From NCBI RefSeq assembly GCF_003148385.1, contig NZ_CP029463.1:682001-746000 (forward strand): a stretch of DNA of 64,000 nt. The letters run 5' to 3'. This document shows positions 33,168 to 37,592 of the stretch, one piece after another; the stretch's first letter is position 1, and each line of letters starts with the position of its first letter. The translations under genes were made by a program, and so were the position numbers. The DNA is from Flavobacterium sediminis. GTDB taxonomy: Bacteria; Bacteroidota; Bacteroidia; Flavobacteriales; Flavobacteriaceae. The notes under the pieces are model-generated. The model searched no databases. It saw only the letters and a list, made by a program, of their open reading frames with translations, and was not told where the DNA came from.

Positions 33168-33851
33168 CTAATGCCGATTTTTTCTAAGGTATTGGAATCC
33201 GTCGAGAACTAAAGCAATTAACAAGAACCCGTAAAACATATCCTCAAAAGGTATAGTTCCCAAACGAAGAGCCATATTCTCTTCATTATTATACCAAACT
33301 ACGGGAGCATCTATCCAACTACCTGTTAAAATTCCGTTTACCACAAAAAAGAAAACCAAGGTTACTGCATAAGAAACATAATATCTCCCCAAATAGGTTT
33401 TCCTGTAAACATGATAAACCAGATACAATAGCAACAACCCGAACGTTGATACCGTATACCAGCGATCATAATATTGCCCTAACAGAACAATTGACAGAAT
33501 AATAAGCAAATACGTAATGTATTTATGTATTCTATACAAGGGATCTTTTTTCAGGAGATAATCCAGCGAAAAAAAGATAAAGACACTCGAATAAGGAATA
33601 CACAAAAAAAACAAAACTTCTTCTAACGGAAGCGTAAAAACTTTTATACCGGTCAAATAACGTTCGTTAAACCCCCAAACTCCTATTTTTGTAAAATAAG
33701 CATCCCAAATCAAAAAAAGGATTCCCACGATCATCAGAGACGGAAAAAGACACTTCCAACGCTTATAGTAGGCGTGTTTCGGATAGAAACTTGCCATAAA
33801 CGGAATAGACAGTGTTGCCAAATCGATTATGAGATACAAATAATGCTCCAT
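33168..33851 (-). CDS. crtY: Lycopene cyclase, CrtYcd-type membrane protein
   Basis: The protein has 227 residues and begins MEHYLYLIIDL at ATG 33851, which overlaps the crtZ stop by one base (TAATG); the longer frame from 33896 lies inside crtZ. It has six to seven hydrophobic helices. The duplicated domain motif appears twice as PLEEVLFFLCIPY and PFEDMFYGFLL, as in the heterodimeric or fused lycopene cyclases of Gram-positives, archaea and Bacteroidota. It cyclises lycopene to beta-carotene in the membrane. It is the last gene of the crt operon. Confidence 0.9.
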   Translation of the reverse strand: MEHYLYLIIDLATLSIPFMASFYPKHAYYKRWKCLFPSLMIVGILFLIWDAYFTKIGVWGFNERYLTGIKVFTLPLEEVLFFLCIPYSSVFIFFSLDYLLKKDPLYRIHKYITYLLIILSIVLLGQYYDRWYTVSTFGLLLLYLVYHVYRKTYLGRYYVSYAVTLVFFFVVNGILTGSWIDAPVVWYNNEENMALRLGTIPFEDMFYGFLLIALVLDGFQYLRKNRH

Positions 33852-34300
33852 TACATTGAAAAATATTTTTTGGGTACATACAACATTCCGAAACATTCCC
33901 CCTGCTCTTTCCCTAAGTGCTTATGATGTACTTTATGTGCTTTCCGCAAACCTATCAAATATTTATTTTTAGTATACTTAAACCATTTAAAACGTTGATG
34001 GATCAAGACATCATGAACTAAAAAATAAGCAATTCCATAAAAAAGAATTCCTAATGCAACAAAAAATAATAGGTTGAGCCCCGGATGTATACCAAAATAA
34101 AAAAGAGCGATACTTGGGATAGCAAAAATGACAAAAAAAGCATCATTCTTTTCAAATACTCCCTGATATTTAGGCTGATGATGATCTTCATGCAAGTACC
34201 ATAAAAACCCGTGCATTATATATTTATGTGTACACCAGGTAACGATTTCCATAAGCAGAAAAGTTACTATAGTTGCCAATATATATACTAAAACCATCAT
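33851..34300 (-). CDS. crtZ: Beta-carotene hydroxylase CrtZ
   Basis: A 149-residue di-iron membrane hydroxylase of the fatty-acid-hydroxylase fold. Histidine clusters are HKYIMHG, HEDHHQ, HDVLIH and HKVHHKH. It adds 3-hydroxyls to beta-carotene to give zeaxanthin. The start overlaps the crtB stop (ATGA) and the stop overlaps the crtY start, so translation is coupled through the operon. Confidence 0.94.
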   Translation of the reverse strand: MMVLVYILATIVTFLLMEIVTWCTHKYIMHGFLWYLHEDHHQPKYQGVFEKNDAFFVIFAIPSIALFYFGIHPGLNLLFFVALGILFYGIAYFLVHDVLIHQRFKWFKYTKNKYLIGLRKAHKVHHKHLGKEQGECFGMLYVPKKYFSM

Positions 34301-35136
34301 ACAATTAAATTCAATTGGTAACGCAAATATGATTTTCCTAAAATCAATAATTTCAAAGGGTCTGATACTCGGATTCGTTTTCTCAAAAACTCATTCGGTT
34401 GGGTTTGCCCTATCTTTTTCAACAAACTTTTATAATAACGAAAAGCGGTATAGACTCCGAACTTAGCTTCAACCGGCAATTGCAAAATACCTTTGTACGC
34501 CACCTCAAAGTCGGCATTGATCTCCGCGACGATTTTCTTTTTATTTGCTTCTGTCAACGCATTAAAATCAACTCCCGGAAAGTAAACTCTTCCTAAATTT
34601 TCATAATCGTATTTCAAATCGCGAAGAAAATTAACTTTTTGAAAAGCCGAACCTAATTTCATAGCACTTGTCTTTAAAGCCTCATATCTTTGCTCGTCTC
34701 CTTTTACAAAAACTTTCAAACACATTAAGCCCACCACATCTGCTGAACCGTAAATGTAGTCTTCATACTCGGCTATTGAAGTATATTCTTTCTTCGTCAA
34801 GTCCATTCGCATACTCTCTAAGAACGGTACTACCAAATCTTTCAAATCGTACTGATGAACCACGCTCTGAAAAGCATTCAATACCGGATTCAGACTGATC
34901 TTTCGCTCTAAAGTTTTTTCATATTCGGCTTCAAATTCGTTTAAAAGCAATTCCTGTTCATAGCCTTCAAACGAATCAACAATTTCATCTGCACAACGCA
35001 CAAAACCATAAATAGCATAAATATCATCCCGTATCTCGGGCGCTAACATTTTAATAGCTAAAGAAAACGAAGTACTGTAAGTATTCGTTATTTTTTTACT
35101 GCATTCCAAAGATGCTACGTCAAACAATGCTTTCAT
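34297..35136 (-). CDS. crtB: Phytoene synthase
   Basis: A 279-residue squalene/phytoene synthase that condenses two geranylgeranyl diphosphates. The two aspartate-rich motifs that bind the Mg-diphosphate are visible: CADEIVDSFE and LRDLKYDYEN. It lies between crtI (4-bp overlap) and crtZ. The geranylgeranyl diphosphate synthase gene (crtE) is not in the window. Confidence 0.95.
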   Translation of the reverse strand: MKALFDVASLECSKKITNTYSTSFSLAIKMLAPEIRDDIYAIYGFVRCADEIVDSFEGYEQELLLNEFEAEYEKTLERKISLNPVLNAFQSVVHQYDLKDLVVPFLESMRMDLTKKEYTSIAEYEDYIYGSADVVGLMCLKVFVKGDEQRYEALKTSAMKLGSAFQKVNFLRDLKYDYENLGRVYFPGVDFNALTEANKKKIVAEINADFEVAYKGILQLPVEAKFGVYTAFRYYKSLLKKIGQTQPNEFLRKRIRVSDPLKLLILGKSYLRYQLNLIV

Positions 35137-36599
35137 AACCCAAATTCTTTTCTGATTTTTTCACTTGCAATTTTTCCCGATATCAATGAGGGGGGAACAC
35201 CCGGTCCGGGAACAGTTAATTGTCCCGTAAAAAATAAATTCTGAACTTTTTTACTCTTTATTTTAGGTCTTAAAAATGCGGTTTGAAACAAAATATTGGC
35301 TAAACCGTAGGCATTCCCTTTATAAGAATGATAATCTTGAACAAAATCCTGTATTCCGAATGATTCATAAAACAAAACAGAATCTTTAAGTTCCTGTCCG
35401 GTGGTTTGCTCTAAACGGTTCATTAGCATTTCAAAATAATGTGCTCTGATCTCCGGAGAATCTTCTAAGCCCGGTGCAACAGGGATCAAAAATGTAGCTG
35501 CTTCTTTTCCTTCGGGAGCAAAAAAGGGATCTGTTTTTGAGGGAAAGCTAGCATAATACAAAGGCTTTTTAGGCCAAGCCGGTGTATCGTAAATTTCTAC
35601 AGCATGTGGTTCAAAAGGCTCATCAAAGAATAGCGTATGATGTTCTACATTACTGATCTTTTGACTGAAGCCTACATAAAATAACAATGATGAAGGGGCG
35701 AAAACTCTCGATTGCCAATATTTTTCGTCATACATTCTAAATTGTTGCGGCAATAACTGTTCAGTATGATGGTAATCTGCCCCGCTTAATACCACATCGG
35801 ATGCAATGAATTCTCCGTTTACTTCCAGTCCTTTTGCCTTTTTCCCTTCCAGTACAATCCTATTTACTTCAGCTTCACAAACAAAATGAACGCCTAAAGA
35901 TTGTGCCAATGTGACCATTGCTTCTACAACGGTATACATCCCTTTTGAAGGATGCCAGGTTCCCAAACCAAAATCAGCATAGTTCATAAAATTATAAAAC
36001 AAAGGCGTATCAGATGGTTTGGCTCCCAGAAATAAAACCGGAAATTCGAGTATCTGCTGTAATTTTTCGCTTTTGAATTCACTTCGTACTTTCTGACTGA
36101 TCGTTTTAAAGAACTGATGAACTCTGATCATGGTTTCCCAACTTACTAATTCTAAAACAGAATCTCCCGGTTTATAGACCATTTCATTTATAGCAATGTG
36201 ATAGTTCTTTTGGGCTTGCGCTATAAAATGTCTTAATTTTTCACCGCTTCCTCTTTCTTCTTGTTCAAAAACAGCAATAATAGTCTCTAAATGATCTGCT
36301 ATGGTGATACTTTCTTTATTCTTAAAGTAAACTTTATAAGCCGGAGACAAACGGTTGAGCTCATAGTAATCATGAGTTGACATTCCAAAATCATTAAAGA
36401 ATTTTTCAAAAACATCAGGCATCCAGTACCAAGTTGGCCCCATATCAAAATGAAAACCATCTCGGGATAATCGGCGTGCACGACCTCCTAAGCTTTTGTT
36501 TTTCTCAAAAACCACCACTTCAAATCCGGCTTTAGCCAAATAACAACTAGCCGCCAGAGAGGAAAATCCGGAACCAATTATACTTACTTTAGTTTTCAA
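35133..36599 (-). CDS. crtI: Phytoene desaturase
   Basis: A 488-residue FAD enzyme converting phytoene to lycopene. The dinucleotide motif SIIGSGFSSLAASCYL starts at residue 6 and the C-terminal signature is FFTGQLTVPGPGVPPSLISGK. The start codon is TTG at 36599: an in-frame TGA lies just upstream and no other start precedes the FAD motif. Its TTGA overlaps the stop of a possible 4-codon mini-ORF (ATG at 36610). It heads the crt operon; two motif copies that resemble MerR-type operators lie directly upstream. Confidence 0.94.
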   Translation of the reverse strand: MKTKVSIIGSGFSSLAASCYLAKAGFEVVVFEKNKSLGGRARRLSRDGFHFDMGPTWYWMPDVFEKFFNDFGMSTHDYYELNRLSPAYKVYFKNKESITIADHLETIIAVFEQEERGSGEKLRHFIAQAQKNYHIAINEMVYKPGDSVLELVSWETMIRVHQFFKTISQKVRSEFKSEKLQQILEFPVLFLGAKPSDTPLFYNFMNYADFGLGTWHPSKGMYTVVEAMVTLAQSLGVHFVCEAEVNRIVLEGKKAKGLEVNGEFIASDVVLSGADYHHTEQLLPQQFRMYDEKYWQSRVFAPSSLLFYVGFSQKISNVEHHTLFFDEPFEPHAVEIYDTPAWPKKPLYYASFPSKTDPFFAPEGKEAATFLIPVAPGLEDSPEIRAHYFEMLMNRLEQTTGQELKDSVLFYESFGIQDFVQDYHSYKGNAYGLANILFQTAFLRPKIKSKKVQNLFFTGQLTVPGPGVPPSLISGKIASEKIRKEFGL

Positions 36600-36609
36600 T
36601 CTTCAATCA

Positions 36610-36646
36610 TTTTGTTTAACAAAAATAATAATTTTATTAAACAAAA
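36610..36646 (-). promoter_or_regulatory. crtI promoter with two palindromic operator-like sites
   Basis: Site 1, 36610-36624, is TTTTGTTTAACAAAA, a palindrome save its centre. Site 2, 36632-36646, reads TTTTGTTTAATAAAA on the minus strand. Their centres are 22 bp apart, about two helical turns. A -7 element TATTTTTG (minus strand, 36620-36627) runs into site 1. A bound MerR-family regulator would block RNA polymerase. Confidence 0.6.
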
Positions 36647-36665: not shown

Positions 36666-37565
36666 TTACACTTGGTGCAACAATTCCTGAATACTCATAA
36701 ATTGTTGTATTCCAGTATTTAGTTTAGAAATATACTGTGTTTGTTGCCCTAACACCCAAAGCTCATGGGATGTTTCTTTTAATACTAAATCGGAGAATTG
36801 CGACAGGTAATTGTCTATTTCTGAAGCAGAAGGTTGTACCGTAAAATAAGATACAAAGACAAGATTCGGATGAATATCAACCATGAACTGCAAATCTTCA
36901 ACAGGAACACTTTCGCCTAAGAAGACAACTCTATAGTCTCTTTTCAGCAATTGATATTGCAGAAATAATAATCCTAGTTCATGGATCTCATTCAAAGGTA
37001 AAAATAAGACAAACAATCGATCCTCTTTTACATCCTTCACTTTAAGGTAAAGGTTTTCCATTTCAAAGAACAATTTTTGCTTTACTAACGAACTGATAAA
37101 GTGTTCATGGACCGGTTTTAAGGTCGCTGTTTGCCATAACAAGCCTATTTCGTCTAACAAGGGGATAAAAACATCAAAGAAAATAGCATCAAAATTTTTA
37201 ACCTCTTTCAACTGATTATACGCTTTGTGGAATAATTCCGTATCAAAATTGAACATAGCCAGTTTGAACTCTGATAAGGCTAAAGTAGCACTGGTTTTTT
37301 GCGAATACGTTTGCTGCACTAACTGAACCAATTGTGATTCATTCAATTGTGCGATCTTGGATATCTTATATCCGAAACGGTTTAAAAAAGCAATATTGAG
37401 TAATTTCTGAAGCTCTTCGGAAGTATAAGAACGAACATTGTTCTCGTTTCTATCCGGCGTAAAGATCTCATAGCGTTTTTCCCAAATTCTAATGGTGTGC
37501 GCTTTTATTCCAGAAAGATTTTCTAAATCTTTCACACTAAAAATTGTCTTAATATTGTTTAGCAT
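36666..37565 (-). CDS. MerR-family regulator with B12-binding domain (CarH/LitR-like)
   Basis: A 299-residue regulator. Residues 8-75 are a MerR winged-helix (TIRIWEKRYEIFTPDRNENNVRSY). Residues about 95-165 form a helical cap with W144, nine residues, then E154-H155, the W-x9-EH motif of CarH photoreceptors. Residues about 180-295 form a cobalamin domain with ExHxxG (E193, H195, G198), where H195 would be the lower cobalt ligand. In CarH, adenosylcobalamin-bound tetramers repress carotenoid genes in the dark and fall apart in light. It lies 66 bp upstream of crtI. The second Gly of the usual GG motif is Gln (VLGQQT). Confidence 0.85.
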   Translation of the reverse strand: MLNNIKTIFSVKDLENLSGIKAHTIRIWEKRYEIFTPDRNENNVRSYTSEELQKLLNIAFLNRFGYKISKIAQLNESQLVQLVQQTYSQKTSATLALSEFKLAMFNFDTELFHKAYNQLKEVKNFDAIFFDVFIPLLDEIGLLWQTATLKPVHEHFISSLVKQKLFFEMENLYLKVKDVKEDRLFVLFLPLNEIHELGLLFLQYQLLKRDYRVVFLGESVPVEDLQFMVDIHPNLVFVSYFTVQPSASEIDNYLSQFSDLVLKETSHELWVLGQQTQYISKLNTGIQQFMSIQELLHQV

Positions 37566-37578
37566 TTTATTTCAAATC

Positions 37579-37592
37579 ATTAAACAAATATA
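37579..37592 (-). promoter_or_regulatory. merR promoter with fused operator-like motif
   Basis: The minus strand reads TATATTTGTTTAAT: -7 element TATATTTG (37585-37592) continuing into TTTGTTTAAT, the same word as at crtI. It is 14 nt before the merR ATG, suggesting autoregulation. Confidence 0.55.

Follow-up and report, generated by a model that had tools for sequence, protein, structure and literature searches.

Next to crtI in Flavobacterium sediminis lies a genuine and conserved MerR-family gene for a CarH-like regulator, for which a regulon is predicted. The gene lies in the window, a 64,000-nucleotide stretch (C1:682001-746000) of the 3.44-Mb single-contig genome. Its product probably works like CarH: at a probability of about 0.65, it is an adenosylcobalamin (AdoCbl)-based, light-released repressor of the carotenoid (crt) genes, of a photolyase (phr) operon and of its own gene.

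36666..37565, minus strand: MerR-family regulator of 299 amino acids with a B12-binding four-helix bundle and a Rossmann domain, CarH-like (open reading frame, Pfam, alignment, structure model)

Predicted cobalamin pocket and its conservation

The regulator is encoded by one open reading frame (ORF) of 299 codons on the minus strand, and the plus-strand reading is full of stops. The Pfam domains MerR_1 and B12-binding_2 both score above their cut-offs. CarH/LitR of Thermus thermophilus (TtCarH) is matched at E 7.3e-10 by sequence and at E 2.8e-14 by family profile. A MerR DNA-binding domain with an RxWERRY-type recognition helix is followed by the four-helix bundle and then by the Rossmann B12 domain, which is the plan of CarH/LitR class I; the Rossmann domain is full by structure model and includes H195. 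The first-pass annotation had placed a CarH-type B12 photoreceptor signature at these coordinates, and its residues W144, E154, H155, E193, H195 and G198 and its loop VLGQQT are all exact. Its placement of the gene beside crtI is also borne out, as crtI (35133-36599) adjoins it, with crtB, a crtZ-like ORF and a gene for lycopene cyclase beyond.

In the alignment to TtCarH, W144, E154, H155 and H195 correspond to W131, E141, H142 and H177. The TtCarH numbering was taken from printed alignments and from papers, in which these four residues are named (PMC11796333; PMC numbers here and below stand for the accessible excerpts of the papers), as are Arg176, Asp201 and Gly192 (PMC10442372). The adenosyl pocket Wx9EH (W144, E154, H155) is present in 121/121 close homologues, and the lower-ligand motif ExHxxG is represented by E193, H195 and G198. 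W144, Q145, P151, E154, H155, E193 and H195 are invariant in the query and the 120 homologues listed of 8000 scored, which include the window's own protein (P0001); genera named among those listed are Flavobacterium, Aquimarina and Flagellimonas. The invariance of W144, E154, H155, E193 and H195 speaks against a chance resemblance. The suggestion that the loop VLGQQT (271-276) marks a loss of function did not survive the comparison: G273 is unchanged in 121/121 of these proteins, and position 274 is Lys, Arg, Asn or Gln in 118/121.

A contig scan confirmed no relatives, and a genome-set search was used instead. The wider sample holds 119 proteins, 115 of them distinct, with the window's own among them. 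They come from 30 regulator loci of a 150-genome set, 29 loci of a phylum sample and 60 fetched stretches (43 further phylum-sample rows and 17 of 24 order-level matches), so that 47/103 matches of the 150-genome set are included. The four pocket residues (W/E/H/H) are kept in 107 of the 115 distinct proteins: in 83/85 whose fetched flank, about 1.5 or 3 kb long, contains crtI or crtB, and in 24/30 of the others. The eight exceptions are the crt-linked L147 (H155Q) and L202 (H195N) and six unlinked proteins. These six (L178, L179, L182, L189, L190 and L191) are paralogues with no crt gene in the fetched flank that have lost pocket residues, His195 being replaced by Ala, Ser, Gln or Leu, for example; they are likely B12-independent MerR regulators of another signal.

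Control by a partner photosensor or antirepressor, with no part for cobalamin, has precedents in the LOV proteins for Pseudomonas class II LitR and in CarS for Myxococcus CarA (PMC9758184; PMC9304148), and the loss of pocket residues in the six paralogues speaks for it. Like the regulator, Pseudomonas class II LitR joins MerR and B12-binding_2 domains, and its light regulon includes phrB and folE (PMC9758184); in contrast to what is proposed for the regulator, it is not expected to bind cobalamin. It works with a LOV photoreceptor, which is often encoded nearby; directly beside the regulator stand crtI and a GH25 gene. In class II LitRs, however, only the bundle was kept as a B12-like part (PMC9758184), whereas the regulator has by model a full Rossmann domain with H195. 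Together with the intact pocket in nearly all crt-linked proteins, this makes such partner control distinctly unlikely.

Predicted operators and regulon

36612..36644, unstranded: predicted inverted-repeat operator before crtI, TTGTTTAA-N17-TTAAACAA (pattern scan, shuffles, conservation)
36620..36627, minus strand: -7 box TATTTTTG (flavobacterial TAnnTTTG) of the presumed crtI promoter, within the operator (read from sequence)
37555..37587, unstranded: second predicted operator, TTGTTTAG-N17-TTAAACAA, over the regulator's own start codon (pattern scan, shuffles, conservation)
37585..37592, minus strand: putative -7-like box TATATTTG of the regulator gene; it overlaps the outer half-site (read from sequence)

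Genome-wide, the pattern TTGTTTAR-N14..24-YTAAACAA has three occurrences, each with a 17-nt spacer, and the reversed control pattern has none. Two of the three are in the window, where shuffles give an expectation of 0.00. One is located between the regulator stop and crtI, and the other (37555-37587) takes in the regulator's start codon together with codons 2-4, which would place auto-repression at the beginning of the gene. The third (C1:3012050-3012082) lies ahead of a small SRPBCC/polyketide-cyclase-like gene, whose Pfam match is just below the cut-off, and this gene is directly followed by a DNA photolyase gene. The genes with a predicted operator in this genome are thus crt, the SRPBCC-photolyase pair and the regulator itself, a set that fits light control. 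The half-site TAAACA agrees with the CarH operator core TnnACA (PMC9304148) and is present twice, inverted, 25 nt from start to start; the regulator would bind this repeat. A genome scan with 3 mismatches was uninformative (205 matches against 217 for the control). One further single-mismatch site from that scan, C1:620143, was set aside, as it sits at the 3' end of an ORF judged by sequence to be of efflux type.

Among 150 genomes, the window's own included, the repeat pattern was found in 95 and the regulator in 103. In counts that ignore phylogeny, one site or more occurs in 76/79 genus genomes that carry the regulator (mean 3.05; reversed control 0.66), compared with 4/12 of those without it (mean 0.33; control 0.67). 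The regulator is followed by crtI in 30/30 loci (best 30 of 103, own included). With up to 2 mismatches and a spacer of 13-21 nt, a site is present in the regulator-crtI gap in 25/30 loci (control 1; exact 16 versus 0) and at the regulator start in 26/30 (control 1; exact 2 versus 0). Photolyase loci were taken from the best 30 genomes of 116, own included, and a truncated one was scored as a miss. The SRPBCC gene is preceded by a site with no more than 2 mismatches in 27/30 (exact 11 versus 0) against 5 for the control, some of whose matches overlap the real site. The loci L155-L214 include 28 that are crtI-linked, and L184 among these belongs to the window's own family. The site was found at the regulator start in 11 and before crtI in 3 of these (control 0 in both cases), and regulator and crtI are several hundred bases apart in 22. 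In 63 of 296 phylum genomes sampled a match reaches E 1e-15 or better, and 56 of the 63 belong to the window's own class; the family is widespread, though not in every lineage.

The position of the repeat supports the proposed repression. The flavobacterial -7 consensus TAnnTTTG (PMC3587595) falls at one fixed place within the repeat in 24/25 crtI-side sites, and the nearest crtI start codon is 0-12 nt past the repeat in 25/25. With the -7 box inside the repeat, binding there would block RNA polymerase. A classical MerR activator, untwisting a badly spaced promoter, is very improbable by comparison. The MerR DNA-binding domain is present, the repeat straddles the promoter, and a -33 TTG is not seen in the sequence at its normal spacing from the -7 box, all of which would suit an activator; yet CarH/LitR proteins of the same domain plan are repressors (PMC9304148; PMC6739363), and a site lying over the -7 box and touching or overlapping start codons fits occlusion.

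In 19/25 crtI-side loci (L060-L089), an ATG stands 0-3 nt after the repeat that holds the -7 box, so that the crtI mRNA probably has little or no leader. In the window (36599-36612), the sole in-frame start of crtI is a TTG 12 nt away; an ATG at the usual place opens a four-codon frame (ATG ATT GAA GAT TGA) whose stop overlaps this TTG. The five crtI-side repeats with a 17-nt spacer (L060, L062, L064, L065 and L066) have crtI starting with GTG or TTG at +11/+12, while the twenty with a 16-nt spacer have ATG at 0 to +3 in 19 cases and ATG at +10 in one (L067). Spacer length and crtI start may possibly form a co-evolved promoter plan.

Beyond these sites, 30 repeat loci were drawn from the 150-genome set; 9 are regulator-crtI sites, 18 others were analysed and L030-L032 were left out. 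A nearby ORF of at least 90 amino acids is present in 15 of the 18, with 19 ORFs in total, of which 14 were scanned with Pfam. The families behind the repeat are DUF2805 (3), fasciclin (2), GTP cyclohydrolase I (2) and flavin reductase (2), with single cases of SDR, CHRD, DUF4397, DUF2452 and a pyrB-like carbamoyltransferase. In Pseudomonas, light induces PhrB and FolE through LitR (PMC9758184), and carH of Thermus brockianus adjoins genes for a photolyase and a phytoene/squalene synthase. DUF2805 genes stand behind the same repeat in three genomes (L037, L042 and L045), which may tie this family to a light-protection regulon.

In the proposed mechanism, AdoCbl would be held in the dark between the four-helix bundle (W144, E154, H155) and the Rossmann domain, with H195 as the lower cobalt ligand. 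The oligomeric regulator would sit on the inverted repeat TGTTTA-N-TAAACA, covering the crtI -7 box and the start of its own gene, and would also repress the SRPBCC-photolyase operon elsewhere in the genome. Green or shorter-wavelength light would cleave the Co-C bond, after which adenosine would depart, the bundle would shift and the oligomer would weaken, so that crt, phr and the regulator gene would be turned on.

Departures from CarH and the alternatives

Several observations weigh against a light-released repressor of the CarH kind. The position of TtCarH His132 is occupied by Q145, and the later report on TtCarH H132A describes a protein that is mostly tetrameric in light (PMC10442372). 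TtCarH Arg176 and Asp201, the head-to-tail dimer pair, are I194 and S219 in the regulator. The published signature of the light-responsive cobalamin domain, derived with SignatureFinder, consists of GxxW, EH, GxxH and GxxxP (PMC11796333); G141xxW144, E154H155 and G217xxxP221 are present, and N192xxH195 replaces GxxH, with Asn for Gly. Two crt-linked relatives, L147 and L202, have each lost a pocket His. The predicted operator is an inverted repeat and not tandem 11-bp direct repeats, and the NCBIfam CarH model gives 58.7 bits against a cut-off of 400. At 3 mismatches the site counts are 27, 29 and 28 of 30 for the crtI side, the regulator start and the photolyase loci, and since the controls reach 20, 11 and 17, only counts at up to 2 mismatches are informative. 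Five of the 30 crtI gaps have no site at 2 mismatches, including that of G061 (regulator 61% identical, best site 5 mismatches). Two genus sites, L054 and L059 (the latter judged by its first 60 residues), lie ahead of pyrB-like genes; these may be unrelated to light. Finally, co-occurrence with an adenosyltransferase, as a test of a need for AdoCbl, gave no discrimination, as the enzyme is found in 134/150 genomes.

Compared with CarH/LitR class I of T. thermophilus (5c8d, 8c31), the regulator has Gln for His132, is without the Arg176-Asp201 pair, has as its predicted operator an inverted 32/33-bp repeat where CarH has tandem 11-bp direct repeats, and scores far below the NCBIfam cut-off, and for these reasons it falls outside strict CarH. 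The first-pass annotation held that the B12-sensing residues of CarH are preserved. This is correct for the invariant W144, E154, H155, E193 and H195 and does not extend to His132 or the dimer pair; Q145 and N192 had been overlooked.

The lack of His132 and, for the most part, of the dimer pair is shared by the sampled relatives. In the 115 distinct proteins the residue at the His132 position is Gln in 74, Leu in 14, Met in 5, Arg in 5 and others in fewer, with His in none, and the dimer pair (R/K and D/E) occurs in 2/115 in the TtCarH order and in 4/115 in either order. CarH of T. brockianus, used for comparison, has W-H, Arg and Asp at the corresponding positions. In a plasmid homologue from Persicobacter (Bacteroidota; L124:2992-3894), outside the 115, the pocket Trp is followed by His as in TtCarH, but EH and the lower His are missing. 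That His is absent therefore holds for the sample only.

On photolysis, the cobalt in TtCarH takes His132 as its upper ligand. An earlier report had the H132A variant disassemble in light, and a 2023 report had it stay mostly tetrameric; the light spectrum is given at about 352 nm for the hydroxo/aqua state of H132A and at about 359 nm for the bis-His state (PMC10442372). CtMerR of Chloracidobacterium thermophilum (8jbs/8jbt) has Arg at this position, where the regulator has Gln, and the photocobilin SasPcob (8j2w/8j2x) has Gln as well. Both are light-responsive (PMC11796333), and Gln145 is therefore compatible with light sensing. SasPcob differs in being stand-alone, with a biliverdin-binding domain in place of the MerR domain and the motif W-x10-EH; in light it is monomeric, and its cobalt is ligated by water or hydroxide (PMC10979010). 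With Gln for His132, the regulator would be expected to have an aqua/hydroxo-cobalamin light state, as reported for SasPcob, and not a bis-His one, and its light chemistry should differ from that of TtCarH. Given CtMerR and SasPcob, His132 is perhaps doubtful as a strict definer of CarH/LitR.

The same residue underlies an alternative in which the regulator binds cobalamin and represses crt and phr as a reporter of B12 status: with Gln, photolysis would fail to dissociate the oligomer, and low AdoCbl would derepress. The lack of His132 throughout the sample, the mostly tetrameric H132A protein (PMC10442372) and two cobalamin riboswitches, which show that B12 is managed in this genome, lend this some weight. 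It is nonetheless unlikely, as the genes that the repeat precedes serve sun protection (carotenoids and photolyase, joined in relatives by FolE and flavin reductase) and SasPcob has a monomeric light state with Gln (PMC11796333; PMC10979010).

For the light-released repressor, a supply of AdoCbl in the host is plausible from the gene content. The genome encodes a PF01923-type adenosyltransferase and one other B12-binding_2 protein, a 911-aa frame that is probably methionine synthase, and one of the riboswitches is followed by a TonB-type receptor gene, as judged by sequence. The five regulator-bearing genomes without the adenosyltransferase (G034, G048, G050, G069 and G074) are 60-91% complete.

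Evenly balanced is the broader proposal of a widespread Bacteroidota branch of CarH-like B12 photoreceptors with no bis-His state, no dimer salt bridge, an inverted repeat and a sun-protection regulon of carotenoids and photolyase and, in relatives, FolE, DUF2805, fasciclin and flavin reductase. The need for a bis-His state in CarH-type sensors is disputed, as the earlier and the 2023 reports on H132A differ (PMC10442372). A natural branch with His in 0/115 and the pocket kept in 107/115 makes this question directly testable, and the repeat with its downstream genes offers ready reporters. The repeat and these genes could also account for light-controlled pigmentation across many aquatic Bacteroidota and might supply optogenetic parts for green light whose off-state is different.

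Earlier reports and neighbouring genes

A similar arrangement, a MerR gene with a B12-binding domain upstream of zeaxanthin genes, is described for the Flavobacteriaceae strain GF1, whose authors already proposed photooxidative control (PMC6974559); the presence of such a gene beside flavobacterial zeaxanthin genes is thus already known. Among the literature matches listed, which mostly do not cover subscription journals, Bacteroidota CarH/LitR is treated only in this remark and in cluster listings such as PMC11855829, and none of them describes the repeat, its regulon or the absence of His for Bacteroidota. MliR of Bizionia was rejected as a relative, as its authors state that it has no effector-binding domain (PMC9478572). 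In Chryseobacterium lacus zeaxanthin is light-induced, yet no car or lit operon is reported by the authors (PMC7064467).

Downstream of the regulator, the crt genes stand in this order, all on its strand.

35133..36599, minus strand: crtI, phytoene desaturase family, TTG start 12 nt past the operator (ORF, NCBIfam CrtID 717 bits)
34297..35136, minus strand: crtB, phytoene synthase family (Pfam SQS_PSY)
33851..34300, minus strand: putative crtZ-like carotene hydroxylase (recognised by eye from His motifs; unmatched in Pfam and NCBIfam)
33168..33896, minus strand: lycopene cyclase, crtYcd type (Pfam, NCBIfam)

The 717 bits of CrtI were obtained with the NCBIfam model of a bifunctional phytoene desaturase/3,4-desaturase (cut-off 640), and the end product therefore need not be zeaxanthin only. 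The lycopene cyclase ORF overlaps the crtZ-like ORF by 46 nt (33851-33896), and its true start may be further in.
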